Source: Pseudovibrio exalbescens DSM 16456 (GTDB lineage Bacteria > Pseudomonadota > Alphaproteobacteria > Rhizobiales > Stappiaceae). Taken from it: a DNA stretch of 64,000 nt. Shown piece by piece: positions 10,205-28,797 of this stretch. The position numbers and the translations under genes were made by a program. The stretch covers positions 294,677-358,676 of the forward strand of contig NZ_KE383919.1 of NCBI RefSeq assembly GCF_000422785.1. The letters are read 5' to 3'. The notes below the pieces were generated by a model. It was not told the DNA's origin. It worked only from the letters and a program-made list of their open reading frames with translations, and did no database searches. Numbering within the stretch: position 1 is the stretch's first letter; every line of letters starts with the position of its first letter.

Positions 10205-11641
10205 CTACGCAAGAACCACAAGCTCTACTGTTCCGTTGATTCCCGCAAGCGGACCTGACCTAAAGTTCAATTCGTCTTTGGTAAAGCCTTCAGCCTTGGC
10301 CCGAGCCAAAGTCTGGCGATCCGTCAGGACGGTGGAGTTCATCTGCTTGTTGGCCTCCTCCAGTTTCGCCGCCTTGTTGACCGGATCACCAATCACGGTG
10401 AATTCAAGACGATCATCCACGCCGATGACACCGACCGTGACATCGCCGGATGCAACCCCTACGCCAATACGAAACGTGCCGGGCCAGCCGGCTTCACGAA
10501 ACTGTGGCGCAGCTTGCTCCAGAACCGCCTTGAGCTGCAGAGCAGCCGTCAGGGCGTTCGCGGCGGGACGCTGGCTTTCTTCCACCGCCCCAAACGTGGC
10601 CAAAATGCCATCTCCCAAGAACTTGTCGATCTGACCGCCCCACTCATCAATGACCCGGCCGGCAAGCCCTTGATAGAGCGCAAGCACGCGCATGGTGGTT
10701 TGAGGCGACAGCGTGGCAGCGGTCGGGGTGAAGGCGCGAATATCAATCATCAAAATGGCGCTGTGACGGATCACGCCTTGCCCCGCCTTCAGTTCTTCAT
10801 CGGCAGAGACGATGGAATCGGCCACCTGCGGCGCAAAGAAACGACTGAGATCATCTACGGCCACATGCTCTCTGACGGCGGCGAACAGCATTCTGCGGCC
10901 ACGCAGCAAGGCAAGTGACAACAGACCTGTAACCGAAACGATGATGATCAGCTTGTCCAGCTCAGCGCCAATGAGAATGGCATTGCTGGTGAGATACTCA
11001 ACATAGTTTCGGGTAATCTTCATGGTGCCCATCTCGTGAAAGAGTGCATAGAGCACCAGTCCAAGCCAGCCCAGCGTTGCAACAGCCCCGGTCCAGAGAA
11101 CGAAACGGGGGTCGAACCTCAGGGCACGCAGCGCGATGAACAGGAACACGTACATCAACGTCGGTGTCTTCAGATAAAACGCGGGATGCTGGCCATACTG
11201 GATGTGAAAGGAAAAAATGATCCCGACCAGCAGCGCCACGTCGACACAGACCGAAATGATCAGATACCAGTCCGGCAATCTGGCCCGAAACGAGAGGTAA
11301 ATCCGAACGACGGTAAAGAGAAAATAGCTGAAGATGGCATAGGGAACGAAGTTGAAACCAGACGCCCCTTCGGCCCGCGGCGCGATGGCATACAACAGCG
11401 CGAAAAACAGAATGACGCCCAGTTGCACGATGCCGATCAGCCGCTCGGCGGCGTTTTCCTGTCGCTCGATTTCACTGCGAACCCGCGTCGGCAGCACGGT
11501 CTGCGTGATCTTGGGGCCAAGGATGCTTTCCCCAAGCCGGCGCACACGCCGCCGTCCGTTCGGGCGCTCATCCGCAGGCTGCGGGGATTGGTCAACTTCC
11601 CGTTCGGACGTGTTGATCTGGGCCTGTGTGCTGTCGTTCAT
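10205..11641 (-). CDS. Membrane class III adenylate/guanylate cyclase
   Basis: 478 residues from ATG 11641 (GGGAG upstream). A polar N-terminal 50 residues rich in Arg/Glu, then about six membrane segments (roughly 65-250), then a class III cyclase catalytic domain. The metal-binding aspartates are in ILMIDIRAFT and DKFLGDGILATFG, and FTVIGDPVNKAAKLE follows. The lysine of DKFLGDG favours ATP, so cAMP is the likely product. It is the last gene of a same-strand run behind an MBL-fold enzyme, a cNMP-binding protein and an ABC protein; the gap to the preceding gene is 109 bases. Confidence 0.88.
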   Translation of the reverse strand: MNDSTQAQINTSEREVDQSPQPADERPNGRRRVRRLGESILGPKITQTVLPTRVRSEIERQENAAERLIGIVQLGVILFFALLYAIAPRAEGASGFNFVPYAIFSYFLFTVVRIYLSFRARLPDWYLIISVCVDVALLVGIIFSFHIQYGQHPAFYLKTPTLMYVFLFIALRALRFDPRFVLWTGAVATLGWLGLVLYALFHEMGTMKITRNYVEYLTSNAILIGAELDKLIIIVSVTGLLSLALLRGRRMLFAAVREHVAVDDLSRFFAPQVADSIVSADEELKAGQGVIRHSAILMIDIRAFTPTAATLSPQTTMRVLALYQGLAGRVIDEWGGQIDKFLGDGILATFGAVEESQRPAANALTAALQLKAVLEQAAPQFREAGWPGTFRIGVGVASGDVTVGVIGVDDRLEFTVIGDPVNKAAKLEEANKQMNSTVLTDRQTLARAKAEGFTKDELNFRSGPLAGINGTVELVVLA

Positions 11642-11750
11642 GCCTTGGGCTCCCTGCCCGCGACCGGGCACAGATGGATGGAGCAAAGGCGAGGCCGAGG
11701 AACCGGGAGTAGCTGTATCACCACAGCAATCGGCGGCTGTCAGCCAGATT

Positions 11751-12572
11751 TCAGGGGCGAAACACCATACCTTCCGAGGCGATCACCGCACCGGGGTGAC
11801 GGGCCTTGGCCGCCAATCCGATTTCATCCAGCTCATCATCCGTCCTTGTCGGATCATGATGGAAAATAACCGGCGTTTTTACCTGCGCCTTGATGCATTG
11901 TTCCACCACATGTTCCCAGGTCGAATGGCCATAGCCTTTGTATCGTTCATAATCTACGGGCGTATACATGCCATCGTAGATCACAACTTCGGCATCACGG
12001 ATAAAATCCACGATCTGGGCATCGATTTCGGCGTCGCCCATCTCATGATCGGTGATGATACACATCTTCTTGTTCTTGTACTCAAAGCGATAGCCGCACG
12101 CGCCGCCGGGATGGTTCAGCGGCATGGTGCAGATGCGAAGCCCGCTTTCTCTTTCCATGCAGGTTCCCGCTATGAAACTGCCGAACTCGATACCCTTGAG
12201 GTTGGTGGCGGTAACGGGAAAGACCGGCGGAGACATGACCCGGCACAGAACTTCTTTCAACTCCCGATGCGGATTGAAGCAGCCGGCCCAAACCGTCAGG
12301 TGAAAACGGGGATCATAGGCAGGCTTGAAAAAAGGCAGCCCGCAAATATGGTCCAGGTGCGTGTGGGTAAAAAACAAATCGATTGAACGGCCAGCATCCT
12401 TGACCAGTTCATACCCCAGATTCCGCGCGCCGGAGCCGCAGTCGACGACCACAAGGTCATCGCCGGCCCGAATGTCAAAACAGGTTGTTTCGCCACCGTA
12501 GCGCAGGGTCCCCGTCCCCGGCGTGGGTGTCGATCCTCGAACACCCCAGATCTTCAGCGAAAACTCGTGCAC
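11751..12572 (-). CDS. MBL-fold metal-dependent hydrolase
   Basis: 273 residues. The N-terminus LKIWGVRGSTPTPG and the metal motif THTHLDHICGLPFF place it in the metallo-beta-lactamase fold, in the branch that includes tRNase Z-like and cyclic-nucleotide-phosphodiesterase-like enzymes; a further D in IYDGMY and a late H complete a two-zinc site. It starts at GTG 12572 (AAGGG upstream). Lying between a cNMP-binding protein and a cyclase, it could hydrolyse a cyclic nucleotide, but that is inferred from context only. Probably cytosolic, as no signal peptide is seen. Confidence 0.8.
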   Translation of the reverse strand: MHEFSLKIWGVRGSTPTPGTGTLRYGGETTCFDIRAGDDLVVVDCGSGARNLGYELVKDAGRSIDLFFTHTHLDHICGLPFFKPAYDPRFHLTVWAGCFNPHRELKEVLCRVMSPPVFPVTATNLKGIEFGSFIAGTCMERESGLRICTMPLNHPGGACGYRFEYKNKKMCIITDHEMGDAEIDAQIVDFIRDAEVVIYDGMYTPVDYERYKGYGHSTWEHVVEQCIKAQVKTPVIFHHDPTRTDDELDEIGLAAKARHPGAVIASEGMVFRP

Positions 12573-12608: not shown

Positions 12609-13046
12609 TCATGAATGTGATTTTGCGTCCGCGAGATCCCTTGTTGTCTTTTCCAGACGTTGCGCCAACACTCGCATGACCTCCAAAGACATTTCCGGAA
12701 ACTCCTTCATCAGCTTCAGAAAGTTCTCCTTGGAGACCGTCAAGACGTCTGTCGTTCCTATCGCCCTCAGTGTAGCCGTTCTTGGCATATCACACAGGAT
12801 AGCAATTTCACCAAGTATGGCATGTTCACCAACCGTAGCCACATGCTCACCGTCCACGATGACGGCTGCCTCGCCCCGTAGAATGATGAAGGCACTATCG
12901 CCCACGTCGCCCTGCACACACAGATCTTCACCGTCCTGAAACTCCATGCGTTCACTGATAAACGCAAGGAGGCGGAGCTTCGTCTCGTCGATACCTGAAA
13001 ACAGTGACACCTTTCTCAAGGCGGCAACTTCTGTATCGATACTCAC
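12609..13046 (-). CDS. Cyclic nucleotide-binding domain protein
   Basis: 145 residues that are almost only a cNMP-binding (Crp-type) beta-roll. The phosphate-binding cassette is LGEIAILCDMPRTATLRA, with the Glu and Arg that hold the cyclic phosphate and ribose. There is no DNA-binding domain, so it is a stand-alone sensor or adaptor, not a Crp-type activator. GTG 13046 has GGAGG upstream. Its neighbours on the same strand are the ABC protein upstream (80 bases) and the MBL enzyme downstream (36 bases), which suggests that it couples cyclic nucleotide level to one of them. Confidence 0.85.
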   Translation of the reverse strand: MSIDTEVAALRKVSLFSGIDETKLRLLAFISERMEFQDGEDLCVQGDVGDSAFIILRGEAAVIVDGEHVATVGEHAILGEIAILCDMPRTATLRAIGTTDVLTVSKENFLKLMKEFPEMSLEVMRVLAQRLEKTTRDLADAKSHS

Positions 13047-13126: not shown

Positions 13127-15709
13127 TTAACCTGAAGACGAAACCCTTCCGTTTTCCAACAGGATATAGCCATTGAACTCTTCCGCTACGGCCATGCTGG
13201 CGCTGCCGAACACGACCGTGCGACCTTTCAGGTCTTCCAAAACGCCCTGTCTGATGGCTTTGTCTTCATCCGTCACACCCGCGACCGTATCATCGATGAT
13301 GGTGACGGGTGCCGCCTTCATGAGCGCGCGCCCCAGACAAATCATGCGGCGCTGGTAGCCCGACAGGCGCGATCCAGCCACACCCACATGATAATCAAGG
13401 CCAGCGCGTCGCACCGGCTGGCGAAGGCCCAACTCCATCACCAGCGAGCGAATGACCTCATCGATCCGCTGGCGGGCATCCCGGCGGTCCAACCTTGGAC
13501 GGCCAAAGAGCAAGTTGTCCTCTATGGTTAGCGTAGGCAAATATGTGTCATTGTCAAAAAACGTGATGATGTCGTTGTCCGTCCCGACAGTTTCCCGGAA
13601 TTCCTGACGCCGCTTGACGAGTTCTTCTTCAAGGTACTCATCCATGACACCAAGACGGTGTTTGGAAGGAACCAGACGAAACGCGAGCGTGATCAGCCGG
13701 TTGCGATCAGCTTCTCGGGTTTTCTTGGGCAGCTTGCCCTGTTTCATCTGCCGCAGGATGCGTTCAAACTCGGGTAGTTCGTCCTGAGTGATGAAGGAAT
13801 AGGTGTCCAGCAACTCACTGTCGCCACTGACGTCCGAAAACAGCTCGATCATGATGCCGGCAATCTGACGCCCGATTTCGATCAGCCGTTCTTCCAGCCC
13901 CGTTTCCTGAAGGAACTCGCGCACGCGCTTGTTCTTGAGAACATCCTCCAGTTTCAACGTGCTGTCTTTCGGTACGGCAAAGAAGAGGTTTTCAGCTAGC
14001 GATGCGGAGGCGTTGAACTTGTTGACGTCCCACAACTCCACCAGATTGCGTAGCTTGGGATCCGTCTGAACCTTTTCCGCCAAGGCATGGCGGGCATCCA
14101 GAATGCGCTGCACCAGTTCCGCGTCATGGTCCGGATTGATGACCGATTGCAGGCCAAGGCGATAGAGATCGCGGGACAAGCCCAAGGTCTCTATGATTTC
14201 GAGCGCCCGGGCGTCCAGTTCATCCACTTCCGAAACGTTGTTGCGCTCCAGATTGATCCAGTTCACATCCAGCCGGTACTCCGGATTGTCGGTGGCGCGG
14301 GCCTCTTCCTTCCAGCGGCGCAGTTCAGACTGGCCAACCTCATCGGCGATCGGCTCTTCTTGTGGGCGATGGCGAAGGCCATAAAGAAGATTGTCCCGGA
14401 TGGTGCCGGTCCAGACGTGAACCGAGGTACCCACGTAGGCGATCTCTCGGCCCAGTGTTGCCTCGCTCAATTGATCCAGATTCTGGGTGCCGATTTGCAC
14501 CTTTCCCGCTGTGGGGCTGAGCAGACCGGCAGCCATTTGCAGCACTTCACTGCGCCCCGACCCTTCAGAGCCGACAACGCAGAACGTCTTGCCTTCCTCT
14601 GCCTTGAAGGACACGCCAAAGACCTCCTGCCCCGACGCGCCGCCCGCAAAGGTGGCATTGGTCATGACAAGATTGCCTTCCAGATGAACCGTTTCGTCCG
14701 ACGTAATACGCTCCAACGGGTAGATGTCCGGCGGATCGAAGTTTTCGACCACGGTCTGGTATTTGACATTCACGTCTGCCGTCATCTGGTAGTAGGCCAG
14801 CAGTTCCTTCCAAGGTGCCGCCAGATCCTTGTAGGCAGCAATGACAGCCAACAAGGCCCCCAGAGACAACTCCCCCTTGATCGCCAGATAGCCGCCGATC
14901 AGGTAGAAGAAGAACGGCGTGAGCTGGTTCATGAAGTTATTGAGAAACTTGATGAAGTACTTGCGATTGTAGATCTCGAAACGGATACGGAAGTTGGTGT
15001 AGAGCCGGTCTGACAGGTCTGCCGAATGCCAGGCGGAGGCGTCATTGGCATGGATTTCCGTAATGCCGCCGATACTCTCGCCAATCTTGTCGGAAATGAC
15101 CCGCACATTGCGCACACGATCCCGGGACAACAACACGACACGGCGCTGGAGCTTGGGAATGATGTAGGCCTGAATGGGATAGGAGCTGATGGCCGCCAAT
15201 CCCAAAAGCGGATCCTGCAGGAAGATGAACCCCAACTGCACCACCAGCATGCCGCCCTGATACGCAGGCAGCGCAATGGCCTCCCCGATGAAGCCCCCCA
15301 CATCTTCGACTTCAGCGGTGATCATGGGGATGATTTCACCGGAGCTGACTTTGCGAAAATGCGGCAGGCGGAAGCGCAGCACCCGCTGGTACAGGTCGAA
15401 CCGCAACCGGCGCAGCATCCGCTCGCCCAAACGCCCCTTGTAGACGTTCAAGAACAGCTTGATGCCGTTGCTGACAACGACCAACAACAGGAACGAAACG
15501 CAAAGGAATGTCAGGTATTCGATTTGATCCAGCTCGAACCCCAACACCTCCCGCGGAAAGTCAGAGCCCTGAATGGCATCGTTCGTGATCTGCTTGGGAA
15601 GATCCAGCAGCATGAAGCTGACCGGATAGGACAGACAAGTAATCAGAAGGATGATGACCTGATACTTGGCCGAATTCTTCCAGATGAAACGGAAAAGGGA
15701 TTTTTCCAT
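13127..15709 (-). CDS. ABC exporter-like protein with degenerate, expanded ATPase domain
   Basis: 860 residues. Residues 1-320 are an ABC exporter membrane domain (about six helices). The nucleotide-binding domain starts near 342 but is abnormal: Walker A is GSEGSGRS at 380-387 with Arg386 for lysine; the Q-loop glutamine is absent (AYVGTSVHVW); the signature LSGYQ (782-786) lies about 400 residues after Walker A instead of about 110; Walker B is IIDD (804-807), lacking the catalytic Glu; and the H-loop histidine is replaced (VVFGSAS). The insert carries repeats of the Q-loop/helical subdomain: TIRDNLLYG 436, SLAENLFFA 570, TIEDNLLFG 728. Normal ATP hydrolysis looks unlikely, so a regulatory or heteromeric role is possible. 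Confidence 0.85.
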   Translation of the reverse strand: MEKSLFRFIWKNSAKYQVIILLITCLSYPVSFMLLDLPKQITNDAIQGSDFPREVLGFELDQIEYLTFLCVSFLLLVVVSNGIKLFLNVYKGRLGERMLRRLRFDLYQRVLRFRLPHFRKVSSGEIIPMITAEVEDVGGFIGEAIALPAYQGGMLVVQLGFIFLQDPLLGLAAISSYPIQAYIIPKLQRRVVLLSRDRVRNVRVISDKIGESIGGITEIHANDASAWHSADLSDRLYTNFRIRFEIYNRKYFIKFLNNFMNQLTPFFFYLIGGYLAIKGELSLGALLAVIAAYKDLAAPWKELLAYYQMTADVNVKYQTVVENFDPPDIYPLERITSDETVHLEGNLVMTNATFAGGASGQEVFGVSFKAEEGKTFCVVGSEGSGRSEVLQMAAGLLSPTAGKVQIGTQNLDQLSEATLGREIAYVGTSVHVWTGTIRDNLLYGLRHRPQEEPIADEVGQSELRRWKEEARATDNPEYRLDVNWINLERNNVSEVDELDARALEIIETLGLSRDLYRLGLQSVINPDHDAELVQRILDARHALAEKVQTDPKLRNLVELWDVNKFNASASLAENLFFAVPKDSTLKLEDVLKNKRVREFLQETGLEERLIEIGRQIAGIMIELFSDVSGDSELLDTYSFITQDELPEFERILRQMKQGKLPKKTREADRNRLITLAFRLVPSKHRLGVMDEYLEEELVKRRQEFRETVGTDNDIITFFDNDTYLPTLTIEDNLLFGRPRLDRRDARQRIDEVIRSLVMELGLRQPVRRAGLDYHVGVAGSRLSGYQRRMICLGRALMKAAPVTIIDDTVAGVTDEDKAIRQGVLEDLKGRTVVFGSASMAVAEEFNGYILLENGRVSSSG

Positions 15710-15952
15710 GCGGGACCCGGTGTTCTGACTCGTACGGTGCGACGCGGTTATACGGCGGCGATTGGCGCGACTTACCGCACCGGATGCAACTCGCGCTAGA
15801 CTAGTGCGGTAACTATTAACAATCCAGCAGAACCTTCAACCAATTTGACACTGTAAGTGATTGCGGATCGCTGGCTATGCTTTTAGTGTCACCACTTGTG
15901 CGCCGAACAACTTGAGAGGCGTGGGGTATTTTTACGACAAGTTGACGAGTTC
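15710..15952. promoter_or_regulatory. Divergent intergenic region, probable promoters both ways
   Basis: 243 bases between the divergent starts of the ABC protein and the first glycan glycosyltransferase, so it should hold promoters for both operons. It contains a near-palindrome around ctagactag (about 15796-15804, extending to gcgctag/ctagtgc) and a TTGACA at 15845-15850 that lacks a good -10 box at normal spacing. A shared operator is possible, but I see no recognised site. Confidence 0.4.
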
Positions 15953-17194
15953 ATGACTTCTGACGCCCTCAAGGTACTGATATACAGTCACGATACGTTC
16001 GGGCTGGGCCACTTGCGCCGCTGTCGAGCCATTGCCCAATCGTTGGTGGGCACTTTTTCTGAAATGTCGGTTTTAATCCTTTCGGGTTCGCCCATCATCG
16101 GCAGCTACGAGTTCAAGTCCCGTGTGGACTTCGTGCGCATACCGGGGGTGATCAAGCTGCGCAATGGCAACTACACACCGCTTTCGCTGCATCTGAACAT
16201 TGACCACACACTGGCGATCCGTTCTTCGATCATCGAGCATACGGCCAAGGTCTTTAATCCGGATATTTTTATCGTCGACAAGGAACCGCTTGGCCTGCGC
16301 GGTGAGGTCTTGCCGACACTGGAGCATCTGGCCCGCACACATACCCGGCTGGTGTTGGGCCTGCGTGACGTCATGGACGATCCCGAAGTGCTGCGCGATG
16401 AATGGACGCGCAAGAATGTGGATCCTGCCCTCACCGATCTTTACGACGAAATCTGGGTGTATGGCCCGTCTTTCATGAACAATCCGCTGGAGGGCATGGA
16501 TCTGCCCCAGGCAGTTCACGACAAGACCCTGTTCACCGGCTACCTCCAACGTTCCATGCCCGCCTCAACCAGTGCCTTTGTGCCGCCGTTTGATGGCAAT
16601 CCCTACATACTTGTGACGCCCGGAGGTGGCGGTGATGGTATCGAGTTGGTTGATTGGGTGATCCGTGCCTACGAGACCCGCGAGCGACCGTTGTTCCCAG
16701 CGCTGATCGTTCTGGGGCCCTTCATGCCCTCGGAAGAGGTGGAACGATTTACTGCACGGGCTGAAGCCTTGCGCGATGTGGAAGTGCTGCGCTTCACACC
16801 AGAAATCGAGCCGTACATGAACGCAGCCACGGCTGTTGTGGGCATGGGCGGCTACAATACGTTCTGCGAGATCCTGTCTTTTGACAAGCCAACCCTTTTG
16901 GTGCCCCGCGTGGTGCCGCGGCGGGAGCAGGCCATTCGCGCCGAACAAGCCAAACGTCTTGGCCTTGTTGAGGTGCTCCCCATCGACGCCTATCCCGATA
17001 ACGAACTGATGCTTGATGCGCTTTCCCAGTTGCCGAGCAATCCGGCACCTTCGCAAGCGCAGTCCCGAACCGTTCTCGGCGGGTTGGAAGTCGTCAACGC
17101 CCGTGTTGACGAAATCTACCGGGAACGAAACGTAACACCCGTCTACAAGGATGGGGCTCCTGTGCTGCAATTGACCGCTCAACGGTCTGTCTAG
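15953..17194 (+). CDS. MurG-like (GT28 C-terminal) glycosyltransferase
   Basis: 413 residues from ATG 15953. GT-B fold: the N-terminal YSHDTFGLGHLRRCRAIAQSL carries the glycine-rich loop and GH motif of MurG-type enzymes, and the C-terminal half has VTPGGGGDG and GMGGYNTFCEILSFDKPTLLVPR, the UDP-sugar donor site. Soluble or peripheral at the inner membrane. First gene of a five-gene same-strand locus (two MurG-like enzymes, two GT4 enzymes and a deacetylase-like protein), so it probably builds a surface or storage glycan. It resembles the fourth gene of the locus at 19558. Confidence 0.8.
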   Translation: MTSDALKVLIYSHDTFGLGHLRRCRAIAQSLVGTFSEMSVLILSGSPIIGSYEFKSRVDFVRIPGVIKLRNGNYTPLSLHLNIDHTLAIRSSIIEHTAKVFNPDIFIVDKEPLGLRGEVLPTLEHLARTHTRLVLGLRDVMDDPEVLRDEWTRKNVDPALTDLYDEIWVYGPSFMNNPLEGMDLPQAVHDKTLFTGYLQRSMPASTSAFVPPFDGNPYILVTPGGGGDGIELVDWVIRAYETRERPLFPALIVLGPFMPSEEVERFTARAEALRDVEVLRFTPEIEPYMNAATAVVGMGGYNTFCEILSFDKPTLLVPRVVPRREQAIRAEQAKRLGLVEVLPIDAYPDNELMLDALSQLPSNPAPSQAQSRTVLGGLEVVNARVDEIYRERNVTPVYKDGAPVLQLTAQRSV

Positions 17195-17206
17195 GTAAAT
17201 TTGTTC

Positions 17207-18430
17207 ATGTCACGCGTTGCTGTTGTGGTGAAGGGCTATCCGCGCCTTTCCGAGACCTTCATTGCTCAAGAAATTCTGGGATTACAGAACCGGGGAATAG
17301 GCCAACTGATTGTGGCTCTGCGCAAACCGTATGACCCTTACATTCATGAGTTACATCGCCAGATCACCAGCGACGTGTTGTACTTGCCCGAGTACATCAA
17401 GGATGATCCGCAGCGGGTGCGCCGTGCCAAGGCATGGGCTGAAAAGCAGCCCACCTACGAAGCAGCACGGGCCCTGTTCGAGGCAGACCTTGCAAACGAG
17501 AACAACGCCAACCGGCATCGGCGTTGGGGACAGGCCTGCGTGTTTGCCCACGAACTGCCGGAGGACGTGCGCTGGATCCACACGCACTATCTGCACACGC
17601 CGTGCTCCGTTTCCCGTTATGCCGCTCACCTGTCGGGCCGGAAGTGGTCGTTTTCCGCCCACGCCAAGGACATCTGGACCTCTCCGGAATGGGATCTGCG
17701 CGTCAAATTGAATGATGCCGCCTGGGGGGTGACCTGCACGCAGGTGAACGTTGATTATCTGAAAAGCCTGACGGACGCACCTGACAACATCGAGCTGGTG
17801 TACCACGGGCTGGATTTCAGCTCGTTTCCGGTGAAGGAAGGCGACCGCAAACCACTTACCGGACATGAAGATACGCCGGTGACGCTGTTGTCGGTTGGCC
17901 GCGCCGTCGAGAAAAAGGGCTATGACGTGTTGTTGCAGGCCCTCGCCCGCCTACCGGCCACCCTGAACTGGCGTTTCGTGCATATTGGCGGTGGTGAGTT
18001 GGCGGAGAAACTGAAGGCGCTTGGCGTGCAACTCGGTCTTGACGAGCGAATTGAATGGCGCGGAGCACAGCCCCGCGAAGAAGTCATCTCCGCCTGCCTG
18101 ACCTCGGACCTGTTTGCCCTGCCGTGCAAGGTGGCCCGCTCCGGTGACCGCGATGGCCTGCCCAATGTGTTGATGGAAGCCCAAGCCATGGGCCTGTGTT
18201 GCCTCTCGACCCGCGTATCGGCCATTCCCGAACTCATTCAGGACAGGGAAACCGGACGTCTGGTGGAGCCCGAATGCCCGCAGGAACTGGCGGACGTCCT
18301 TGGCGAACTGATGCAAGATCCGGCACAGCGCGACAAACTGGGCCTTGCAGGATCGGCCTTTGTGCGGCGAAACTTCGAGACTGCACCGGGCCTTGATCGG
18401 CTCAAGGAAAAGTTTGCCCCCATATTGTGA
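17207..18430 (+). CDS. Glycosyltransferase family 4
   Basis: 407 residues from ATG 17207, 12 bases past the previous stop. The N-terminal KGYPRLSETFIAQEI is the start seen in GT4 exopolysaccharide glycosyltransferases. The C-terminal part has LLSVGRAVEKKGYDVLLQAL and DGLPNVLMEAQAMGLC, the GT-B donor-site E-x7-E region. A retaining sugar transferase acting in the cytosol on a lipid-linked acceptor is likely; sugar unknown. The next gene starts 9 bases after this stop. Confidence 0.85.
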   Translation: MSRVAVVVKGYPRLSETFIAQEILGLQNRGIGQLIVALRKPYDPYIHELHRQITSDVLYLPEYIKDDPQRVRRAKAWAEKQPTYEAARALFEADLANENNANRHRRWGQACVFAHELPEDVRWIHTHYLHTPCSVSRYAAHLSGRKWSFSAHAKDIWTSPEWDLRVKLNDAAWGVTCTQVNVDYLKSLTDAPDNIELVYHGLDFSSFPVKEGDRKPLTGHEDTPVTLLSVGRAVEKKGYDVLLQALARLPATLNWRFVHIGGGELAEKLKALGVQLGLDERIEWRGAQPREEVISACLTSDLFALPCKVARSGDRDGLPNVLMEAQAMGLCCLSTRVSAIPELIQDRETGRLVEPECPQELADVLGELMQDPAQRDKLGLAGSAFVRRNFETAPGLDRLKEKFAPIL

Positions 18431-18439
18431 GTGAAACCA

Positions 18440-19561
18440 ATGAAGCTGGCCTTCACCAGTCCCATGAAACCGTTGGACCATCCCGTGCCGTCCGGAGATC
18501 GGACACTTGCCCGGCTTCTGGTTCGCGCGTTTCGGGAGGCCGGCCACACTGTGGACGTAGCCACCCGTTTCCAGAGCTGGCGCAAGAGTGGCGGCCGGAG
18601 CATGCAAGAGGCGTTGAAAACGGAGGCGTTGCGCGAGGCTGAGGCCGTAGCGGCCAGTTGGCGCAGCACGGGATACGTCCCTGACGCTTTTGTCACCTAC
18701 CATCTGTATCACAAGGCTCCGGACTGGATCGGACCGGCCTTGGCACGTGAGTTCAACTGTCCCTACATCGTGATTGAAGCGAGTCGAGCCCCCAAACAGG
18801 CGACGGGAGACTGGGCGTTCGGCTTTGCAGAGGCGGACAAGGCGCTTGAGGCAGCCGATCAGGTGGTTGCCCTGCACCGGGCAGATGCGACCTGCCTGCG
18901 CGACCTTGTCGGTGAGCGGCTCAGCATCATTCCGCCATTCATCGACACGGATCCGTTTGATGATGCGCCGGCGCTGGCCGTCGTGCCGAAGCGGATCAAG
19001 CTTCTGGCCGTTGGCATGATGCGTCCTGGAGCCAAGATGCGCTCCTATGAGGTTTTGGCCCAAGCACTGGAACGCGTGAAAGCCACAAACTGGGAACTGA
19101 CCATTGTGGGGGATGGACCAGAGCGCGCGGACATTCACGACATGTTTTGTGAGCTGCCAGCGCATTTTGTCGGCTCGGTGGCGACGGATGCCATGCCGGC
19201 CTTTTACAGCACCAACGACATTCTGGTTTGGCCCGCCGTACGTGAAGCATTCGGCTTTGTATTTCTGGAGGCTCAGGCGGCCGGCCGGCCCGTTGTTGGC
19301 GGCGATACGTTCGGGGTTCCGGACATTGTGGCTCAGGGCGTCAGCGGTCTGTTGTCTGCCGAAGGAAATGTGGACGCATTTGCCGCCAATCTGGAGCGCC
19401 TCCTTGAAGACCCGCAGCTGTGCAACCAGATGGGGCAACAGGCACGGGCGCATGTTCAGGCCCGCCACAGCCTTGAGGCTGGCACACAACACCTCGACAC
19501 TCTTCTACTGCGCGCCAAAGATCATTTTGCGTTCAAACATCAAACCGGAAAGATTTCATGA
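18440..19561 (+). CDS. Glycosyltransferase family 4
   Basis: 373 residues from ATG 18440 (an in-frame GTG at 18431 follows the previous stop directly). N-terminal LAFTSPMKPLDHPVPSGDR opens a GT-B fold, and the C-terminal donor region reads VGDGPERADIH, REAFGFVFLEAQAAGRPVVG, then GLLSAEGNVDAFA. Probably a retaining enzyme of the glycan locus. Its stop overlaps the start of the following gene by four bases (ATGA), so the two are translationally coupled. Confidence 0.83.
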   Translation: MKLAFTSPMKPLDHPVPSGDRTLARLLVRAFREAGHTVDVATRFQSWRKSGGRSMQEALKTEALREAEAVAASWRSTGYVPDAFVTYHLYHKAPDWIGPALAREFNCPYIVIEASRAPKQATGDWAFGFAEADKALEAADQVVALHRADATCLRDLVGERLSIIPPFIDTDPFDDAPALAVVPKRIKLLAVGMMRPGAKMRSYEVLAQALERVKATNWELTIVGDGPERADIHDMFCELPAHFVGSVATDAMPAFYSTNDILVWPAVREAFGFVFLEAQAAGRPVVGGDTFGVPDIVAQGVSGLLSAEGNVDAFAANLERLLEDPQLCNQMGQQARAHVQARHSLEAGTQHLDTLLLRAKDHFAFKHQTGKIS

Positions 19562-20709
19562 AAGCCTTCATCCATGTTCAGCATCTTCTTGGCACCGGGC
19601 ATATCGTTCGCGCTGCCGCCATCGGGCGTGCGCTTGCCGCTCGCGGGGTGGAGGTGACGCTGGCTGCTGGCAACACGGTGCCGCCGACGCTGAACACGCA
19701 TGGGCTCAACATTGTTGAACTGCCCCCCGTGCGCAGCCCGGATGCAGTCTTCGACAAGCTGGTGGAGCCTGACGGCACCCCCGTGGATGATGAGTGGTTC
19801 GAAAAGCGCACCGGCACCACACTGGATGCTTTCAAGGCGCAGGACTATGACATTCTGCTCACCGAGACCTATCCGTTTGGCCGCCGCCAGTTCGAACGCG
19901 AGATGCGGCCCTTGCTGGAGTTTGCCAAGACACGCAAGCCCAAGCCGCTCATTGCCTCGTCCATTCGCGACATTCTGGTGCGCAAGCAGCAGCTTTGGAA
20001 GGAAGAATGGATGGCAACACAGGCACGCCAGTCCTACGATTGCGTTCTGGTGCATTCCGATCCGGAATTCGTGCAGCTCGGCGACAGTTTCCCATTTACG
20101 GCAGAGGTGGATCACCTGCTGCGTTATACCGGCTATGTAGATGCGCAGCGCGATGACACAGCCCCCAGCGAAGAAGGGGAGGACGAGGTTCTCATCTCCT
20201 GCGGCGGCGGTGCCGTGGGCGGCCAACTTCTTGAGGCTGCCATGGTAGCCCGCTCCCTGAGCCGGCGAGCCAACGACACCTTGTGGCGTGTACTCGTGGG
20301 GCATGACATATCCGAGGCCGCTTTCACCGAGCTTCAACTCAAGGCGACGGACGGATGCAGCGTGGAACGTGCGCGGTCCGACTTTCCGCAGATGCTCAAG
20401 CAAGCCCGGTTGTCAATTTCCCAAGCGGGGTACAACACGGTGCTGGACGTCTTGATTGCCGGTGTCCCTGCCGTGTTCGTGCCGTTCGCCCAGGTGCGCG
20501 AGACCGAACAAGCCCAGCGCGCCGCCGCATTGGTGCAGCGCAGCCGAGCAGTAAGCCTGCCCGAAGACACGCTGACGCCTGAGGGCCTTGCCGCCGCCGT
20601 GGATGATGCGCTGGCCCTGCCCCGTGCCGAAATGACCGTACTTCTGGGCGGCGCAGAGCGCAGCGCCGACATTCTGATCGCCGAGCGCGAACGGCAGGTG
20701 GTGAAATGA
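19558..20709 (+). CDS. MurG-like (GT28 C-terminal) glycosyltransferase
   Basis: 383 residues. N-terminal QHLLGTGHIVRAAAIGRALA and C-terminal ISCGGGAVGG with SQAGYNTVLDVLIAGVPAVF give the same GT-B plan as the first gene of the locus, so the two look paralogous. Overlaps its neighbours on both sides by ATGA, which ties it tightly to the GT4 before and the deacetylase-like protein after. It probably adds a sugar from a nucleotide-sugar donor to a lipid-linked glycan. Confidence 0.8.
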   Translation: MKAFIHVQHLLGTGHIVRAAAIGRALAARGVEVTLAAGNTVPPTLNTHGLNIVELPPVRSPDAVFDKLVEPDGTPVDDEWFEKRTGTTLDAFKAQDYDILLTETYPFGRRQFEREMRPLLEFAKTRKPKPLIASSIRDILVRKQQLWKEEWMATQARQSYDCVLVHSDPEFVQLGDSFPFTAEVDHLLRYTGYVDAQRDDTAPSEEGEDEVLISCGGGAVGGQLLEAAMVARSLSRRANDTLWRVLVGHDISEAAFTELQLKATDGCSVERARSDFPQMLKQARLSISQAGYNTVLDVLIAGVPAVFVPFAQVRETEQAQRAAALVQRSRAVSLPEDTLTPEGLAAAVDDALALPRAEMTVLLGGAERSADILIAERERQVVK

Positions 20710-21506
20710 CCCGAGACATGCAGGCATTCGCCTCTTTCCAACAGGCGCTGACGCATCATCTTGACTGGTTTGCGACACGGGGGCGCAAGGTGCGCTTCTG
20801 GTGGCGGGATGACGATGCGATTGAGCCGACGCCCAATCTGGACAGGCTTTTGGCACTGTCAAACCAGCATACGGTGCCTGTCGGTTTGGCTGTGATACCG
20901 CGCGACGTCCAACTCAGCCTGGCCGAGCGCCTCAAGACTGCGCCCCATGCGTGGGTTTTGCAGCACGGATGGCAACACAAGAATTTTCAGCGCAAGGACC
21001 TGGGAGAAAAGGCCGCGGAGCTTGGCGCTCGGCGCAACGTGGATGAAGTCCGCGCCCAGTTGCAACAGGGTTTTGCGAAGCTTTCGGAATTGTTCGGATC
21101 CCGCTTCATTCCCGCCTTGGTGCCGCCGTGGAACCGAATTGACCCGGCCATCGCCCGTGTCCTGCCCGAGATCGGCCTGACCAGTCTTTCGACCTTTACA
21201 TGGATGCACCCTTACGACTTGGCTCAGATGCAATCCCACGTGGATATCATCAAATGGAAAAAGAACCAGCGCTTCATCGGGTGGAAAAGCGCCAAGGACC
21301 GTCTCGACCTGCAACTCACCCGCAGGCGCACAAATCCGCATGAGCCCTTGGGCATATTGACCCATCATCTGGCCCATGAAGACGGGTGCTATGAGTTTCT
21401 GGAGGAATTTCTGGCCATTGCAGCCCATCACCCCGGAGCCGACTGGCCCGGCCTTCCGGATTTGTTTGCCGAAGAAGTGACCCGCGCTCAGCGCATCCGC
21501 ACGTGA
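20706..21506 (+). CDS. Polysaccharide deacetylase-like protein
   Basis: 266 residues. FWWRDDDA near residue 36 matches the metal/catalytic Asp motif of the polysaccharide deacetylase (NodB/CE4) fold, HGWQHKN matches the zinc-binding HxxxH stretch, and PPWNRI and LTHHLAHED supply the later motifs. No signal peptide is evident, so it may act in the cytosol on a lipid-linked glycan. Last gene of the glycan locus, coupled by ATGA to the gene before. The family call rests on motifs; the substrate is unknown. Confidence 0.7.
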   Translation: MTRDMQAFASFQQALTHHLDWFATRGRKVRFWWRDDDAIEPTPNLDRLLALSNQHTVPVGLAVIPRDVQLSLAERLKTAPHAWVLQHGWQHKNFQRKDLGEKAAELGARRNVDEVRAQLQQGFAKLSELFGSRFIPALVPPWNRIDPAIARVLPEIGLTSLSTFTWMHPYDLAQMQSHVDIIKWKKNQRFIGWKSAKDRLDLQLTRRRTNPHEPLGILTHHLAHEDGCYEFLEEFLAIAAHHPGADWPGLPDLFAEEVTRAQRIRT

Positions 21507-22651: not shown

Positions 22652-23827
22652 TCATTTATAAGGGTCCGCTGCGTCCCGTAAACCGTCCCCGAGGAAATTG
22701 AAGGCAAGAACCACGATAATTATCGGGATGACCGGGGCCATAAGCCACGGATAAATGGTCACAACCGAAATATTCTGGGCTTCGTTCAAAAGCACCCCCC
22801 AAGACACAGAGGGCCGCCGCAAGCCGAGATTCAGGAAGGACAGCGCGGTCTCGCCAAGGATCATGGCCGGAATCGACAAACTGGCGGAGGCGATGAGGTG
22901 TGAGGTGAAGCCGGGCAACAAATGCTTGAAGATGATGCGGCGAGGACGCGCGCCCATCATGACAGCGGCGCGGGCGTATTCCTCTTCGCGCAAGGACAAG
23001 AGCTTGGAGCGCACGGCGCGCGCAAGGCCAGGCCAATCCAGCAGCCCCAGAATGATGGTGAGGCCAAAATAGATCCAGACCGGTGACCAGGTGACCGGCA
23101 GGGCGGCGGAAAGCGCCATCCACAAGGGCAATTCCGGCAATGCGCGCATGATTTCGATCAGGCGCTGGATCATGCTGTCGATGATACCGCCGAAATAACC
23201 GGCCAAACCACCAAGCAGAATGCCCAAGAACATGGAAATGACAATACCCACGATGCCAACGGTCAGCGACAGTCGGGCCCCGTAGATCAGACCGGAGAGC
23301 TGATCGCGCCCCAGCCGATCCGTGCCCGCCAGGAACATGGAGCCCCCTTCCGCCGCACACACAAGGCGAAAATCCATCTCCCACAAGCCCCAGAAGCGAT
23401 AGGTACTGCCGGAGCAAAAGAAGCGAAGCGGCTGAACCTGATCGGGATCTTCCTTGTAGACCCAGCGCAGGGTCTCCAGATCCACTTCCGACGTGAAGCC
23501 ATAGACAAACGGACCGATGAACTGGCCATCATGAAACAGGTGAAGTGTTTGCGGCGGCGCATAGAGATAATCATTATTGCGCTCGTTGGGCGTATAAGGG
23601 GCAATGATCTCCGCAAACGGCACACACAGATAAAACAGGATGAGCACGACCCCGGACCACACTGCCAGCTTGTGGCGACGGAACTTCCACCACATGATCT
23701 TCCACTGGGAAGCCTGATAAAAGCGTTCTTGTTCCGGCGTGAGCTTTTCGGTTGCTGTAGGATCGAACGGCTCGGGGTTGACGTAGTGGTCGGGCTCGCG
23801 ATCGGACGGGGGCAGATGACGGCTCAT
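22652..23827 (-). CDS. Peptide-type ABC transporter permease (OppC/DppC type)
   Basis: 391 residues. A long cytosolic N-terminus, one membrane segment near 55-75, a large periplasmic insert of about 90 residues containing two cysteines (FFCSGSTYR, RLVCAAEGG), then five membrane segments with the EAA loop REEEYARAAVMMGARPRRI, which docks to the ATPase. The ending FLGDGLRDAADP is typical of OppC. It overlaps the preceding permease gene by ATGA and is the last gene of the importer operon. The large periplasmic insert is characteristic of a subset of peptide/microcin-type importers. Confidence 0.88.
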   Translation of the reverse strand: MSRHLPPSDREPDHYVNPEPFDPTATEKLTPEQERFYQASQWKIMWWKFRRHKLAVWSGVVLILFYLCVPFAEIIAPYTPNERNNDYLYAPPQTLHLFHDGQFIGPFVYGFTSEVDLETLRWVYKEDPDQVQPLRFFCSGSTYRFWGLWEMDFRLVCAAEGGSMFLAGTDRLGRDQLSGLIYGARLSLTVGIVGIVISMFLGILLGGLAGYFGGIIDSMIQRLIEIMRALPELPLWMALSAALPVTWSPVWIYFGLTIILGLLDWPGLARAVRSKLLSLREEEYARAAVMMGARPRRIIFKHLLPGFTSHLIASASLSIPAMILGETALSFLNLGLRRPSVSWGVLLNEAQNISVVTIYPWLMAPVIPIIIVVLAFNFLGDGLRDAADPYK

Positions 23828-24849
23828 GAGCGGCTCCCTCCCCCCAATCGAATACGCGGATCCAGAACCGCCAGAAGCAGATCCGAAACAAGCATGCCGA
23901 CCAGCGTCAGCACCGAGACGAACAACAGGATGAAGGCGGCAAGAAACTGATCCTGAGACTGCAACGCATTGAGCAGGACAGGACCAACGGTCGGCAAGTT
24001 GAGCACCACGGATACGATCACCGAACCGGACACCAGAGAGGGTATCAGGTTGCCGATATCCGCAATGAACGGGTTCAGCGCCATCCGCAGCGGATACTTG
24101 ACCAGAAGCGCGCGTTCCTTCATGCCCTTGGCGCGGGCCGTCGTTACATACTGTTTGTGCAGTTCATCCAGAAGGTTGGCCCGCAGACGGCGGATCATGG
24201 CCGCTGTGCCGGATGTTCCGATCACGATGGTTGGCACAATCAGGTGCGAAAGTACCGAAAGCGCTTTATCCACGGACCATGGCTCACCGATGTACTCGGG
24301 GTCCATCAAGCCTCCGATGGACAGGTCAAACCATGCGTTGGCCAGATACATGAGCACGAGTCCCAACAGGAAGTTGGGCGTTGCCAACCCGACATAGCCC
24401 AAAAAGGTGAAGCCATAGTCGCCCCATGAGTACTGACGGGTGGCGGAATAGATGCCAATTGGAAAAGACACCAGATAAACGAACAGGATCGTGGCGGCAT
24501 TGAGCACGATCGTGAGGGGCAAGGTTGGCCCTACCACCTCGTAAACCGGCTTGTCATATTCAAAGGACCAGCCCCAATTGCCTTGCAGCAGACCATCAAA
24601 CCCGTGCGGCCCCGGCCAGAGCCCGACCCATATGGCGAACCGCTCGAAAAACGGCCGATCCAACGCAAACTCCTGTCTCAGGAACTCGAGCTTGGCCACG
24701 GAAGCGGACTCGCCGGAAGACTTCAGAACCGCGATCTGGTTCGAGATATAGTCCCCTTCCGGGAGTTCGATGATGAAGAACGTGAGCAGACTGATCACCA
24801 GTAGTGTCGGGATCATGGTCAGCAGTCTGCGAACGGTATAATAAAGCAT
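23824..24849 (-). CDS. Peptide-type ABC transporter permease (OppB/DppB type)
   Basis: 341 residues, six membrane segments. The N-terminus YTVRRLLTMIPTLLVISLLTFF is the usual OppB start, and the EAA loop TTARAKGMKERALLVKY contacts the ATPase. Pairs with the OppC-type permease just downstream (four-base overlap) to form the channel. Follows the binding-protein gene by 47 bases. Confidence 0.9.
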   Translation of the reverse strand: MLYYTVRRLLTMIPTLLVISLLTFFIIELPEGDYISNQIAVLKSSGESASVAKLEFLRQEFALDRPFFERFAIWVGLWPGPHGFDGLLQGNWGWSFEYDKPVYEVVGPTLPLTIVLNAATILFVYLVSFPIGIYSATRQYSWGDYGFTFLGYVGLATPNFLLGLVLMYLANAWFDLSIGGLMDPEYIGEPWSVDKALSVLSHLIVPTIVIGTSGTAAMIRRLRANLLDELHKQYVTTARAKGMKERALLVKYPLRMALNPFIADIGNLIPSLVSGSVIVSVVLNLPTVGPVLLNALQSQDQFLAAFILLFVSVLTLVGMLVSDLLLAVLDPRIRLGGGSRS

Positions 24850-24896
24850 CAGGTCTACTGCTCAGCCTTTCGGACCTAGAAGACGTGTCCGGTATC

Positions 24897-26789
24897 CTAG
24901 TCCTGTTCGGTAAAGAAGAAGGCATCCATGCGGTGAATTCCGAAGTGGGATCCCGGATCCCATCCGTAAATGCCGGTTTCCGGCACATTGGACAGCCCCT
25001 TGACCACCACAGGCTGACGTACCTGATTGACCAGACCGATGTGGATGGTTTCGTCCGCATGGATTTGCAGCATTTCATGCCAGATCTGGGCACGTTCCTC
25101 TTTCGTGCTGCTGGCCAGCCAGGCGTCATACAATTCCATGAGGCGATTGGCTGGCGCCCAGTCCGGCTTTTCACCAGATTGACCATCGGTCTCGTAATAG
25201 TCGCCCCACGGTGCCCATGAGAGGAAATCGCCGCGTGTGGGTGCATAGTCGACCGGAGGCATGTCCGCTGTGGGAACACCGTTTTCAAAACCGGACCAAA
25301 CCGCCATGACCAGATCGCCCGACATGGCGCGGTTGCGAATGGTGTCGCGCTGGCTCGGTTTCAGGAAAGCGCGAATGCCCAGTTCCTTCCAGGTTTCTGC
25401 CACCAACTCGATGGCATCGTCCTGCGCACGGCTTTCCCCCGAACTTTCAATGATGATCTCCAGAGGCCGACCATCGGGCAACAACCGGGTACCGTCATTA
25501 CGACGTTCAACAAGGCCGATCTCATCGAGAAGCGCATTGGCTTTTTCAGGGTCAAACGCTGCCCAGTCCTTGGCGTAGTCGTCCTTGTACAGTGGCGACA
25601 TTTCCAAAACCGTGTCGTTGCTGGGATGAGCCAGCCCGAAATACAGCACCTTGTTGATCATGTTGCGATCAATGCCAAGTGACAGTGCATGGCGGAAACG
25701 GACGTCCTGATTGAGCTTTCTCCAAACCGGATCCTTGACGGCCAGATTGGGTAGCAAGGCCACCTGAGAGCCCTTGGTTGAGAGCCAAAGGTTGGTCTTG
25801 TACCCTTCCGACGCCTCTCCCCGCTTGAGAACGGAAATGTCGGAGAAGCTGAGGTTGCGCGCCTGCAGGTCACTTTCTCCTGCCTGGGTCTTGGCCGGGA
25901 TCAGCTTGCCATCCGCCACGGTCATGACCACGCGATTGATATAAGGCAACTGCTGGCCTTCGCTATCGAAGCGATGGAAGTAAGGATTGCGCGTGAAAAC
26001 GATACGCCGGTCATCACCCTCCTCGGTCAGGACCCACGGCTGAAGCGAGGGCAGCTCCGAGTTACGGGCGTTGTACATGTCGTCCAGCTTGTTGAACAAC
26101 GGCGCCCAGCTTCGCACCTTGTAGGTGGCGGTCATATCCTCAATGACCTGCGGATCACCATAGTTTTCGTGGAACTGTTTGAGATAATGCGCCGGACGAT
26201 AAATGAACGGTGGACGTGACTTGGCCAGTTCCGGCAAGAACAGCGGGTTGGGCTTGTCCCAAGTATAGCGAACCGTGATCTCGTCGATCACCTCAAACCT
26301 GGGTGGCTGTCCATCCACCAGCAGAAACGACGGCATGCCCCATGGATTCAACGCGTCGTTGGTCAGCACATCTTCAAACCAAAACCGGAAATCCTCACTT
26401 GTGAAGGGATGGCCGTCAGACCATTTGTGGCCCCGACGCAAGGTTAATGTGAAGATGCGCCCCTCTTCCACCTGAACGTCTTTCAAGATGTCCGGACGCA
26501 GTTCCAGATCCTCGGTATAGCCGACCAGACGGGCATAGCCCCATACATTGATGAGGCGCGCATCCTTGGTTCGCCCCACCAGAGTGCGCAGCTCACCGCC
26601 CTGTTTTCCAGTGGTGCGGCCAATCTCCGTCATGTTGGTGACAAGCGGATCAACCGGTGCACGCTCGCTGGTTGGCGGCAGCCCCTCCGCAATGCCCGGC
26701 GTGGGCGTCATGGTGAATGCACCCGCCGTCCCGGCCCAAGAGATGAGGATTGCCGCGGCAACCCCTTTGAACAAACCTGACGTTTTCAA
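24897..26789 (-). CDS. Periplasmic substrate-binding protein, family 5 (DppA-like)
   Basis: 630 residues from a TTG start at 26789, whose TTGA overlaps the stop of the ATPase gene and has GGAGAGG upstream. A signal peptide is clear (hydrophobic GVAAAILISWAGTAGAF). The mature protein has family 5 features: LRRGHKWSDGHPFTSEDFRFWFED near the first third and VRFRHALSLGIDRNMINKVLYFG in the middle. At over 600 residues it is larger than DppA, closer to YejA-type binding proteins. It captures peptides, opines or similar solutes in the periplasm for the adjacent permeases. Confidence 0.88.
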   Translation of the reverse strand: MKTSGLFKGVAAAILISWAGTAGAFTMTPTPGIAEGLPPTSERAPVDPLVTNMTEIGRTTGKQGGELRTLVGRTKDARLINVWGYARLVGYTEDLELRPDILKDVQVEEGRIFTLTLRRGHKWSDGHPFTSEDFRFWFEDVLTNDALNPWGMPSFLLVDGQPPRFEVIDEITVRYTWDKPNPLFLPELAKSRPPFIYRPAHYLKQFHENYGDPQVIEDMTATYKVRSWAPLFNKLDDMYNARNSELPSLQPWVLTEEGDDRRIVFTRNPYFHRFDSEGQQLPYINRVVMTVADGKLIPAKTQAGESDLQARNLSFSDISVLKRGEASEGYKTNLWLSTKGSQVALLPNLAVKDPVWRKLNQDVRFRHALSLGIDRNMINKVLYFGLAHPSNDTVLEMSPLYKDDYAKDWAAFDPEKANALLDEIGLVERRNDGTRLLPDGRPLEIIIESSGESRAQDDAIELVAETWKELGIRAFLKPSQRDTIRNRAMSGDLVMAVWSGFENGVPTADMPPVDYAPTRGDFLSWAPWGDYYETDGQSGEKPDWAPANRLMELYDAWLASSTKEERAQIWHEMLQIHADETIHIGLVNQVRQPVVVKGLSNVPETGIYGWDPGSHFGIHRMDAFFFTEQD

Positions 26790-28681: not shown

Positions 28682-28797
28682 GGGGATGCCTCCTGTCCGC
28701 GTTGGTCGCGGATCGTTCCCTCCGAAGTCTGACCGTCTGGCTTGGCTTATTTTTCGCCTCTTGCGCAAGCTCAACCGATCAGTGTTCTAGCCTTAAG

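Follow-up and report, generated by a model that had tools for sequence, protein, structure and literature searches.

Further copies of the Q-loop/helical segment

The window analysed here, a 64,000-nucleotide stretch of Pseudovibrio exalbescens DSM 16456 (assembly GCF_000422785.1, contig NZ_KE383919.1, positions 294,677 to 358,676), encodes at 13127..15709 on its minus strand an ATP-binding cassette (ABC) exporter-like protein with a degenerate nucleotide-binding domain (NBD), a putative pseudo-ATPase (open reading frame (ORF) of 860 amino acids, ATG start). Profile comparisons support the presence in this NBD of two further copies of the Q-loop/helical segment, and the family to which the protein belongs has lost catalytic residues throughout, in differing ways. 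A preliminary description of the window, made from the letters alone, had suggested an internal duplication of this segment, and the matches of the repeats to the canonical exporter segment, with control segments that did not match, bear this out.

By fold the window protein is an ABC exporter; by its catalytic features it would not be classed as an ATP-driven exporter, because four of the features tested (Walker A, Walker B, Q-loop and H-loop) fail. An exporter-type transmembrane domain (TMD; PF00664, ABC_membrane over residues 39-290, E = 7.3e-16) is followed by an ABC NBD fold (PF00005); the TMD is taken as residues 1-330 (14720..15709, minus strand, as are all features of this gene) and is the best conserved part of the protein by identity comparison. 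Among NCBIfam models MsbA_lipidA comes nearest (5.4e-43), although it and the other models listed fall far short of their cut-offs. The AlphaFold2 model of the whole protein has a mean predicted local distance difference test score (pLDDT) of 83.5, and its NBD core superposes on canonical NBDs when the insert is omitted (for that of ComA, 221 residues, 2.4 A, Z 23.8). The motifs lie where the preliminary description had placed them. The degenerate Walker A reads GSEGSGRS from residue 380 (residues 380-387; 14549..14572), with Arg386 replacing the Lys; Thr stands at position 428 where the Q-loop Gln is expected; TIRDNLLYG begins at 436, SLAENLFFA at 570 and TIEDNLLFG at 728; the GL...G motifs LGLSRDLYRLG, TGLEERLIEIG and LGLRQPVRRAG begin at 509, 603 and 760. 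The signature-like LSGYQ occupies residues 782-786 (13352..13366), the Walker B-like VTIIDD residues 802-807 (13289..13306; TIIDD from 803) and ends in Asp-Asp instead of Asp-Glu, Asp807 taking the place of the Glu, and no His is found within 832-842, so that the H-loop His is gone as well. The distance from Walker A to LSGYQ is 402 residues, start to start; in an ordinary exporter encoded in this genome it is 104, which leaves 298 extra residues, in line with the approximately 290 first noted.

The evidence for the repeat comes from pattern counts, profile comparisons and predicted structure. A degenerate TIxxNLLFG pattern, derived from the motif itself, matches the window protein three times; among 20,000 shuffles of residues 331-860, three had one match and none had more. 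For the profiles, we aligned 114 distinct sequences, drawn from 123 full-length sequences at 126 loci (80 of 577 candidate relatives were used; the broken copies L038, L039 and L041 were left out), and removed gappy rows segment by segment. The segments compared were R1 (residues 412-530; 14120..14476), with a strand, the Q-loop position and the TIRDNLLYG helix, R2 (545-640; 13790..14077), which carries SLAENLFFA, and R3 (705-790; 13340..13597), which carries TIEDNLLFG and reaches into the signature. In hhalign the three match one another (R2-R3, E = 1.4e-13; R1-R3, 3.5e-7; R1-R2, 3e-6), whereas 12 control pairs gave E values of 0.069-0.72; a 13th control pair, R2 against 620-712, did match, owing to a 21-residue overlap between them. 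Against the canonical segment from Q-loop to signature (a profile of 76 columns from one ordinary exporter and its orthologues), R3 matches over 71 columns (E = 4e-14), R1 over 24 (7.6e-9) and R2 over 42 (1.1e-4), with four control segments at 0.09-0.4. Therefore, R3 is the complete canonical segment leading into the signature; R1, joined to the RecA half, is a second start of it, and R2 makes the third copy.

The threefold repeat first noted thus holds in that all three segments match one another, but its outline has to be redrawn: the unit shared by R2 and R3 is longer than noted, and R1 matches well only over the strand, the Q-loop and the TIxxNL helix. R2 and R3 share the preceding helix (529-549 and 691-708; E = 1.9e-6) and an identical predicted order of secondary structure, helix-strand-helix-strand-helix, and are spaced 158 residues apart (N574 to N732). 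Between them lies a conserved stretch of its own, with the consensus VELFADLPPDHEFF, DDLP and KLIPARHRLGL. Modelled alone with AlphaFold2, the R2 unit reached a mean pLDDT of 90.2; Foldseek returned nothing from the PDB for this model at E <= 0.001, nor did a search of PDB sequences with the insert profile yield a relative at E <= 0.1. A signature/Walker B-like part in each repeat was also considered and rejected: the stretches 505-566 (before VELWD) and 655-712 (before ITFFD) did not match the true segment either locally (E = 0.17 and 0.055) or globally (0.95 and 0.37), and they match each other (1.9e-6). A global alignment of the units U1 and U2 in this comparison is an artefact, since the segments used overlap.

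Loss of catalytic residues and inverted conservation

Judged from the 114 aligned sequences, it is the repeat motifs, not the catalytic motifs, that are the constrained features of the family. N574, N732 and G736 are present in all 114 and N440 in 109. At the Walker A Lys position Arg is found in 74, Lys in 30 and other residues in 10, and at the Walker B Asp position Asp in 61, Asn in 41 and Ser in 10; the catalytic Glu of Walker B is present in 52, Gln at the Q-loop position in 18 and His at 837 in 26. Of the signature, canonically LSGGQ, Ser783 is kept in 93 sequences and Gly784 in 8. Lys, Asp and Glu occur jointly in a single sequence (L075), which reads GKD where Ser or Thr is expected, and GK[ST] combined with DE in none. 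Homologues with an intact canonical site and without the repeats were not found in the alignment, which agrees with the earlier suggestion of a non-canonical ABC protein. The insert is conserved as a family trait; the Arg386 and Asp807 changes, on the other hand, are not conserved as such, because different clades have lost different catalytic residues. Family-wide, these losses suggest that ATPase activity is probably absent.

The pattern of conservation along the protein is inverted as well. In ordinary exporters the NBD is described as the most conserved part (PMC7756269). Comparing window relatives and ordinary-exporter orthologues over overlapping genome sets, we found that 22 relatives (L002-L030, 29 rows, minus 7 identical to another row) share 82.6% identity with the window protein in the TMD and 54.3% in the NBD core, whereas 29 orthologues of an ordinary exporter share 66.3% in the TMD and 70.2% in the NBD, with the NBD above the TMD in 21 of the 29. 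Over all 113 relatives, mean identity to the window protein is 67.2% in the TMD versus 40.3% in the NBD core, and the TMD is the better conserved part in every one (113/113).

A cyclic-nucleotide-binding partner

Directly downstream of the ABC gene, on the same strand, lies a gene for a stand-alone protein of 145 amino acids with a single cyclic-nucleotide-binding (CNB) domain (12609..13046, minus strand; Pfam cNMP_binding, 2.6e-17), which we propose to be the partner subunit. Of the 118 distinct loci compared, 100 have a CNB gene next to the ABC gene, 16 have one fused to its 3' end, and 2 (L083, L126) have none. This sample is tilted to fusions, since L182-L199, chosen mainly for frames near or over 1000 amino acids, supply 11 of the 16; fused L142 was chosen as an odd genome, and L043, L091, L092 and L106 entered without such choice. 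Two fused proteins carry ABC_membrane, ABC_tran and cNMP_binding in a single chain according to Pfam. The phosphate-binding cassette is strongly conserved, with G79, R89 and A91 in all 101 distinct CNB sequences and E80 in 100, and the ligand may be a cyclic nucleotide. Adjacency and fusion together suggest that the ABC and CNB proteins may form a physical complex.

In quick trees, made without bootstrap, the whole ABC part places the 16 fused rows on one branch of 17 (support 99 in the Shimodaira-Hasegawa approximate likelihood ratio test, SH-aLRT), the other row being L083, and therefore fusion or fission may have happened once. The P-loop and signature are unrecognisable in 6 of the 16 fused members. 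One genome (G214) holds three fused ABC-CNB paralogues (L142, L191 and L192), none with a recognisable P-loop, and a second genome (G446) holds two (L189 and L194). An apparent further fusion, L201, is ended by a contig edge and has a cyclase-like ORF about 2 kb on; it was seen by eye and stands outside the counts.

Relatives without the nucleotide-binding domain

Some relatives consist of the membrane domain only. The relative in genome G059 is a 325-residue TMD without an NBD, and of 25 plasmid matches listed, 17 from Rhizobium (83-86% identity) are annotated as ABC transporter transmembrane domain-containing proteins and three others as ATP-binding proteins; in the R. lentis record no NBD-type transporter gene is listed within 6 kb of the TMD-only gene. 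Among 15 loci chosen for short frames, some of which come from the same genome as another (G858, G818), 14 have NBD-less ORFs, and L221 is a full member ended by the contig edge. In a tree of the TMD, L216 and L217 fall within the window's clade (a set of 15 rows, support 97), L218 falls elsewhere in the family and 11 lie outside it, and the well supported branches require at least three changes. Twenty-seven TMD positions are kept in 95% or more of the family and in 12 or more of the 14 TMD-only proteins, and E96 and E133 are present in all 114 family members and all 14 TMD-only proteins.

The TMD-only genes were found in differing settings, L217 beside pyrimidine-catabolism-like genes and L218 beside copper-resistance genes. 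The Rhizobium TMD-only gene comes after a gene for a CBS-domain protein (L214:5153-5875, annotated; L200:7978-8712, by eye), CBS being another nucleotide-sensing domain.

Gene neighbourhood

The run of ABC and CNB genes continues on the minus strand into a metallo-beta-lactamase (MBL) fold hydrolase (11751..12572; Pfam Lactamase_B_2, 3.5e-14) and a class III adenylate/guanylate cyclase-like protein (10205..11686; Pfam Guanylate_cyc, 1.1e-10), so that a receptor, a maker and a possible remover of a cyclic nucleotide would stand together. The hydrolase is a weak candidate for a cyclic-nucleotide phosphodiesterase: its best NCBIfam model is ribonuclease Z (3.1e-17), that of the cyclic nucleotide-degrading phosphodiesterase follows at 9.2e-7, and both are far under cut-off. 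The activities of the two enzymes are putative. Divergently, on the plus strand, a glycosyltransferase run begins with a GT28-like protein in conserved context (15896..17194; Pfam Glyco_tran_28_C), followed by an EpsE-like GT4 protein (17201..18430; Pfam Glycos_transf_1; NCBIfam EPS_EpsE, 1.2e-34, under cut-off) and, from the domain scan, a further GT4 protein (18431..19561) and a second GT28-like protein (19558..20709). A polysaccharide-deacetylase-like protein comes next (20706..21506, plus strand; Pfam Polysacc_deac_1 and DUF2334, both under cut-off), and annotated polysaccharide deacetylase genes adjoin the orthologue in L150 and L181. Beside this run, at 22652-28774, the domain scan found an Opp-type importer of two permeases, SBP_bac_5 and a double ATPase.

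Much of this setting recurs. For 90 distinct loci, 5 kb was available on each flank; within range, a related glycosyltransferase occurs in 74 of these, the deacetylase in 64, the cyclase in 38, the MBL protein in 34 and the importer in 22. An annotated Mesorhizobium locus contains glycosyltransferases, ABC, CNB, MBL, polysaccharide deacetylase and cyclases, and a Phyllobacterium locus much of the same set. In Sinorhizobium meliloti 2011 (L147), the window's importer permeases and binding protein are matched at 46-61% identity around the orthologue, as are the glycosyltransferases and the CNB protein, and synteny therefore spans families. The canonical partner of a degenerate-site heterodimer is often encoded by a neighbouring gene. 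An ordinary ABC exporter was considered as a standing neighbour of the family and rejected: an exporter-like ORF, with membrane stretches and then an NBD, lies in the flanks of only one of the 118 loci (L142, 5' of the fused gene). Some other NBD ORF lies in the flanks of 45, in 17 of them a double-NBD ORF, and the NBD ORF at -7 kb of L095 is an Opp-type importer ATPase.

Distribution of the family

The insert profile was found in 98 of 289 genomes sampled across the class and in 31 of 398 sampled across the phylum, all 31 from the same class or nearer; the two samples overlap and include the window's own genome. Relatives among the matches listed come from Stappiaceae, Azospirillum, Inquilinus, Sneathiella, Thalassobaculum and Tistrella, and also from metagenome bins, five with the label Gammaproteobacteria (41-44% identity) and a sixth with the label Anaerolineae; these labels may be wrong. 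Rhizobial copies are carried on large plasmids, including pSymB of S. meliloti, and three annotated plasmid records name the orthologue simply ABC transporter ATP-binding protein. In S. meliloti 1021 the match (NC_003078.1:841723-844435) is 2713 bases long, compared with 2712 in most listed strains.

Two groups of unusual copies were noted. In L038:8378-10971, L039:8664-11278 and L041:8540-11185 the reading frame is broken near residues 427-450, with several breaks in L041; intact copies are present in other genomes of the same genus, and both error and decay are possible. A meaningful two-gene form was rejected, as the break sites differ and L041 has several. The paralogues L193:7434-10022 and L195 (an ORF of 949 amino acids) align with the family profile from about position 346 onwards and not before; they have the same insert-bearing NBD and a different, poorly matching membrane domain.

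Proposed mechanism and alternatives

We tentatively propose, as a possibility that we would not yet call probable, that an ABC-exporter TMD works here without ATP hydrolysis and under the control of the CNB subunit, exerted by way of a pseudo-NBD whose docking segments are triplicated. The window protein would be the membrane subunit of a two-part complex, its TMD presumably a homodimer and its NBD no longer an ATPase, and the second part would be the CNB subunit encoded just downstream and fused in one clade. In ordinary exporters the Q-loop/helical segment receives the coupling helices of the TMD; here the NBD may persist as a scaffold on which the two added copies give the CNB subunit additional places to dock. 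The cyclase of this gene run would make a cyclic nucleotide, and its MBL hydrolase may remove it; once bound, the nucleotide could switch the TMD between a closed and a transport-competent state. The TMD would move its substrate without ATP, powered by an ion or substrate gradient as in truncated MsbA and LmrA, and in the window's branch this substrate is probably a glycan or glycolipid from the divergent glycosyltransferase run. What the sequences themselves show is the loss of catalytic residues, the triplication, the higher conservation of the TMD than of the NBD, the adjacency and fusion of the CNB gene and the existence of TMD-only relatives. The scaffold and the complex are read from this genomic evidence, and the gating, the ATP-independent transport and the glycan substrate are inferences.

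Several observations weigh against this proposal. The window NBD still fits the Pfam family ABC_tran, in two stretches (E = 1.9e-18); the protein keeps a Ser after Arg386 and the LSGYQ motif, Gln786 is retained in 111 of the 114 sequences, and Arg, Asp and Glu are retained together in 19. The 6 fused members (of 16) with unrecognisable P-loop and signature also show changes in the phosphate-binding cassette of the CNB domain, and in the tree built from the TMD only, 5 separate rows are interspersed with the fused rows (support 81). The evidence from TMD-only relatives is qualified by long-branch warnings in the tree and by a double-NBD ORF within about 5 kb at 4 of the 14 loci; L222 has a single NBD ORF as well. 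Among the 12 fused loci whose flanks were long enough, 11 have no related glycosyltransferase and one has; therefore, the link to the CNB domain is wider than that to glycans, and the substrate may differ at fused loci. Finally, HetC of Nostoc, a peptidase ABC exporter, has an N-terminal CNB domain that is described as required in vivo and as binding ppGpp, not cAMP (PMC10986499).

Three alternatives were weighed. A membrane receptor or scaffold, in which the TMD-NBD and CNB parts detect a cyclic nucleotide and keep glycosyltransferases or other partners in place or regulate them, while nothing crosses the membrane, appears doubtful: the catalytic loss, the CNB partner and the nearby cyclase and MBL hydrolase would suit a signalling module, and a tripled docking segment would suit a scaffold, but the 27 shared TMD positions are common even to TMD-only relatives that have no NBD, and the TMD-only genes examined sit in unrelated gene settings. 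We consider it unlikely that the protein is an active, non-canonical ATPase exporter of a glycan, with Arg in place of Lys in phosphate binding, other acids in place of the Walker B pair and a CNB subunit that only modulates. The canonical fold of the NBD core in the AlphaFold2 model (its fit to ComA) speaks for such an enzyme, as do the 61 sequences with the Walker B Asp, the 52 with the Glu and the 19 with Arg, Asp and Glu combined; against it, only 1 of the 30 sequences with the Walker A Lys also has the Walker B Asp, the P-loop can no longer be recognised in six fused paralogues, and conservation is lower in the NBD than in the TMD. It is quite improbable that the window protein forms one half of a heterodimer whose other half, a canonical half-exporter, is encoded at another site, after the manner of TmrAB or TM287/288. 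In favour, degenerate sites are described as frequent among heterodimeric exporters (PMC7756269), heterodimers with a degenerate site are among the best full-length structural matches, and an exporter-like ORF lies 5' of the fused gene at L142. Against this, that locus is the only one of the 118 with such an ORF, the other NBD ORFs at 45 loci include 17 double-NBD ORFs and the importer ATPase beside L095, and known degenerate partners are reported to keep their site under selection (PMC7756269), whereas here it drifts.

Returning to the proposed signal-gated transporter, a wider statement is that a natural class of ABC exporters gave up ATP, its NBD becoming a triplicated docking scaffold for a CNB subunit, a second messenger gating an ion- or gradient-driven TMD, and the NBD being lost entirely in several lineages; this we put forward with greater hesitation than the proposal for the window protein itself. 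If it were true, the membrane domains of ABC exporters would be natural secondary-active, signal-gated transporters, and would join the membrane proteins under cyclic-nucleotide control. The evidence for an ATPase-free exporter TMD so far, as presented in PMC4979069 and PMC2704374, comes from laboratory truncations of MsbA and LmrA, and a natural, conserved family makes such a function testable on wild-type proteins. In the literature searched, covered in part and mainly as titles and abstract openings, we found no account of an exporter with a triplicated helical segment or of a CNB partner of a dead-ATPase exporter.

Comparison with known systems

Compared with MsbA-type exporters (ABCB-like half transporters), the window protein has the same TMD fold, order of TMD and NBD, RecA core and helical subdomain, and its best NCBIfam model, although under cut-off, and its PDB matches are of this kind. 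It differs from them in that none of Walker A, Walker B, the Q-loop and the H-loop is intact, in an insert of 298 residues that holds the Q-loop/helical segment twice more, in the higher conservation of the TMD than of the NBD, and in its CNB partner. The S. meliloti orthologue of the window protein may be SMb20813. SMb20813 is named as the msbA homologue of S. meliloti in PMC10945364, and MsbA2 (SMb21191) is described as an MsbA-like protein encoded with glycosyltransferase genes on pSymB (PMC3687685). Identity of the window's orthologue with MsbA2 was considered and rejected, as the MsbA2 operon lies near 938 kb of pSymB and the orthologue at 841.7-844.4 kb; a CNB gene, which bears the annotation Crp/Fnr in strain R14, comes directly after the orthologue.

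With TmrAB, TM287/288 and MsRv1273c/72c, which are close structural matches, the window protein shares an NBD with altered catalytic residues. In those heterodimers, according to PMC7756269 and PMC12038006, the second site is canonical and the degenerate site is kept under selection, whereas no canonical partner was found in the flanks of the 118 loci, one exporter-like ORF at L142 apart, and the site of the window family drifts. HetC resembles the family in being an ABC exporter that carries a CNB domain; it differs in having a C39 peptidase and in needing its ATPase residue, whereas the CNB domain of the window family is C-terminal or separate and the catalytic residues are lost, and a Pfam scan of the window protein and two fused members found no peptidase. 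A functional parallel to the proposed mechanism would be MsbA-MD and LmrA-MD, which are reported to transport with ion coupling in the absence of an NBD (PMC4979069, PMC2704374). Like these, the window family presents an exporter TMD without an ATPase; unlike these, which are laboratory truncations, the dead-NBD and TMD-only forms described here are natural and conserved.

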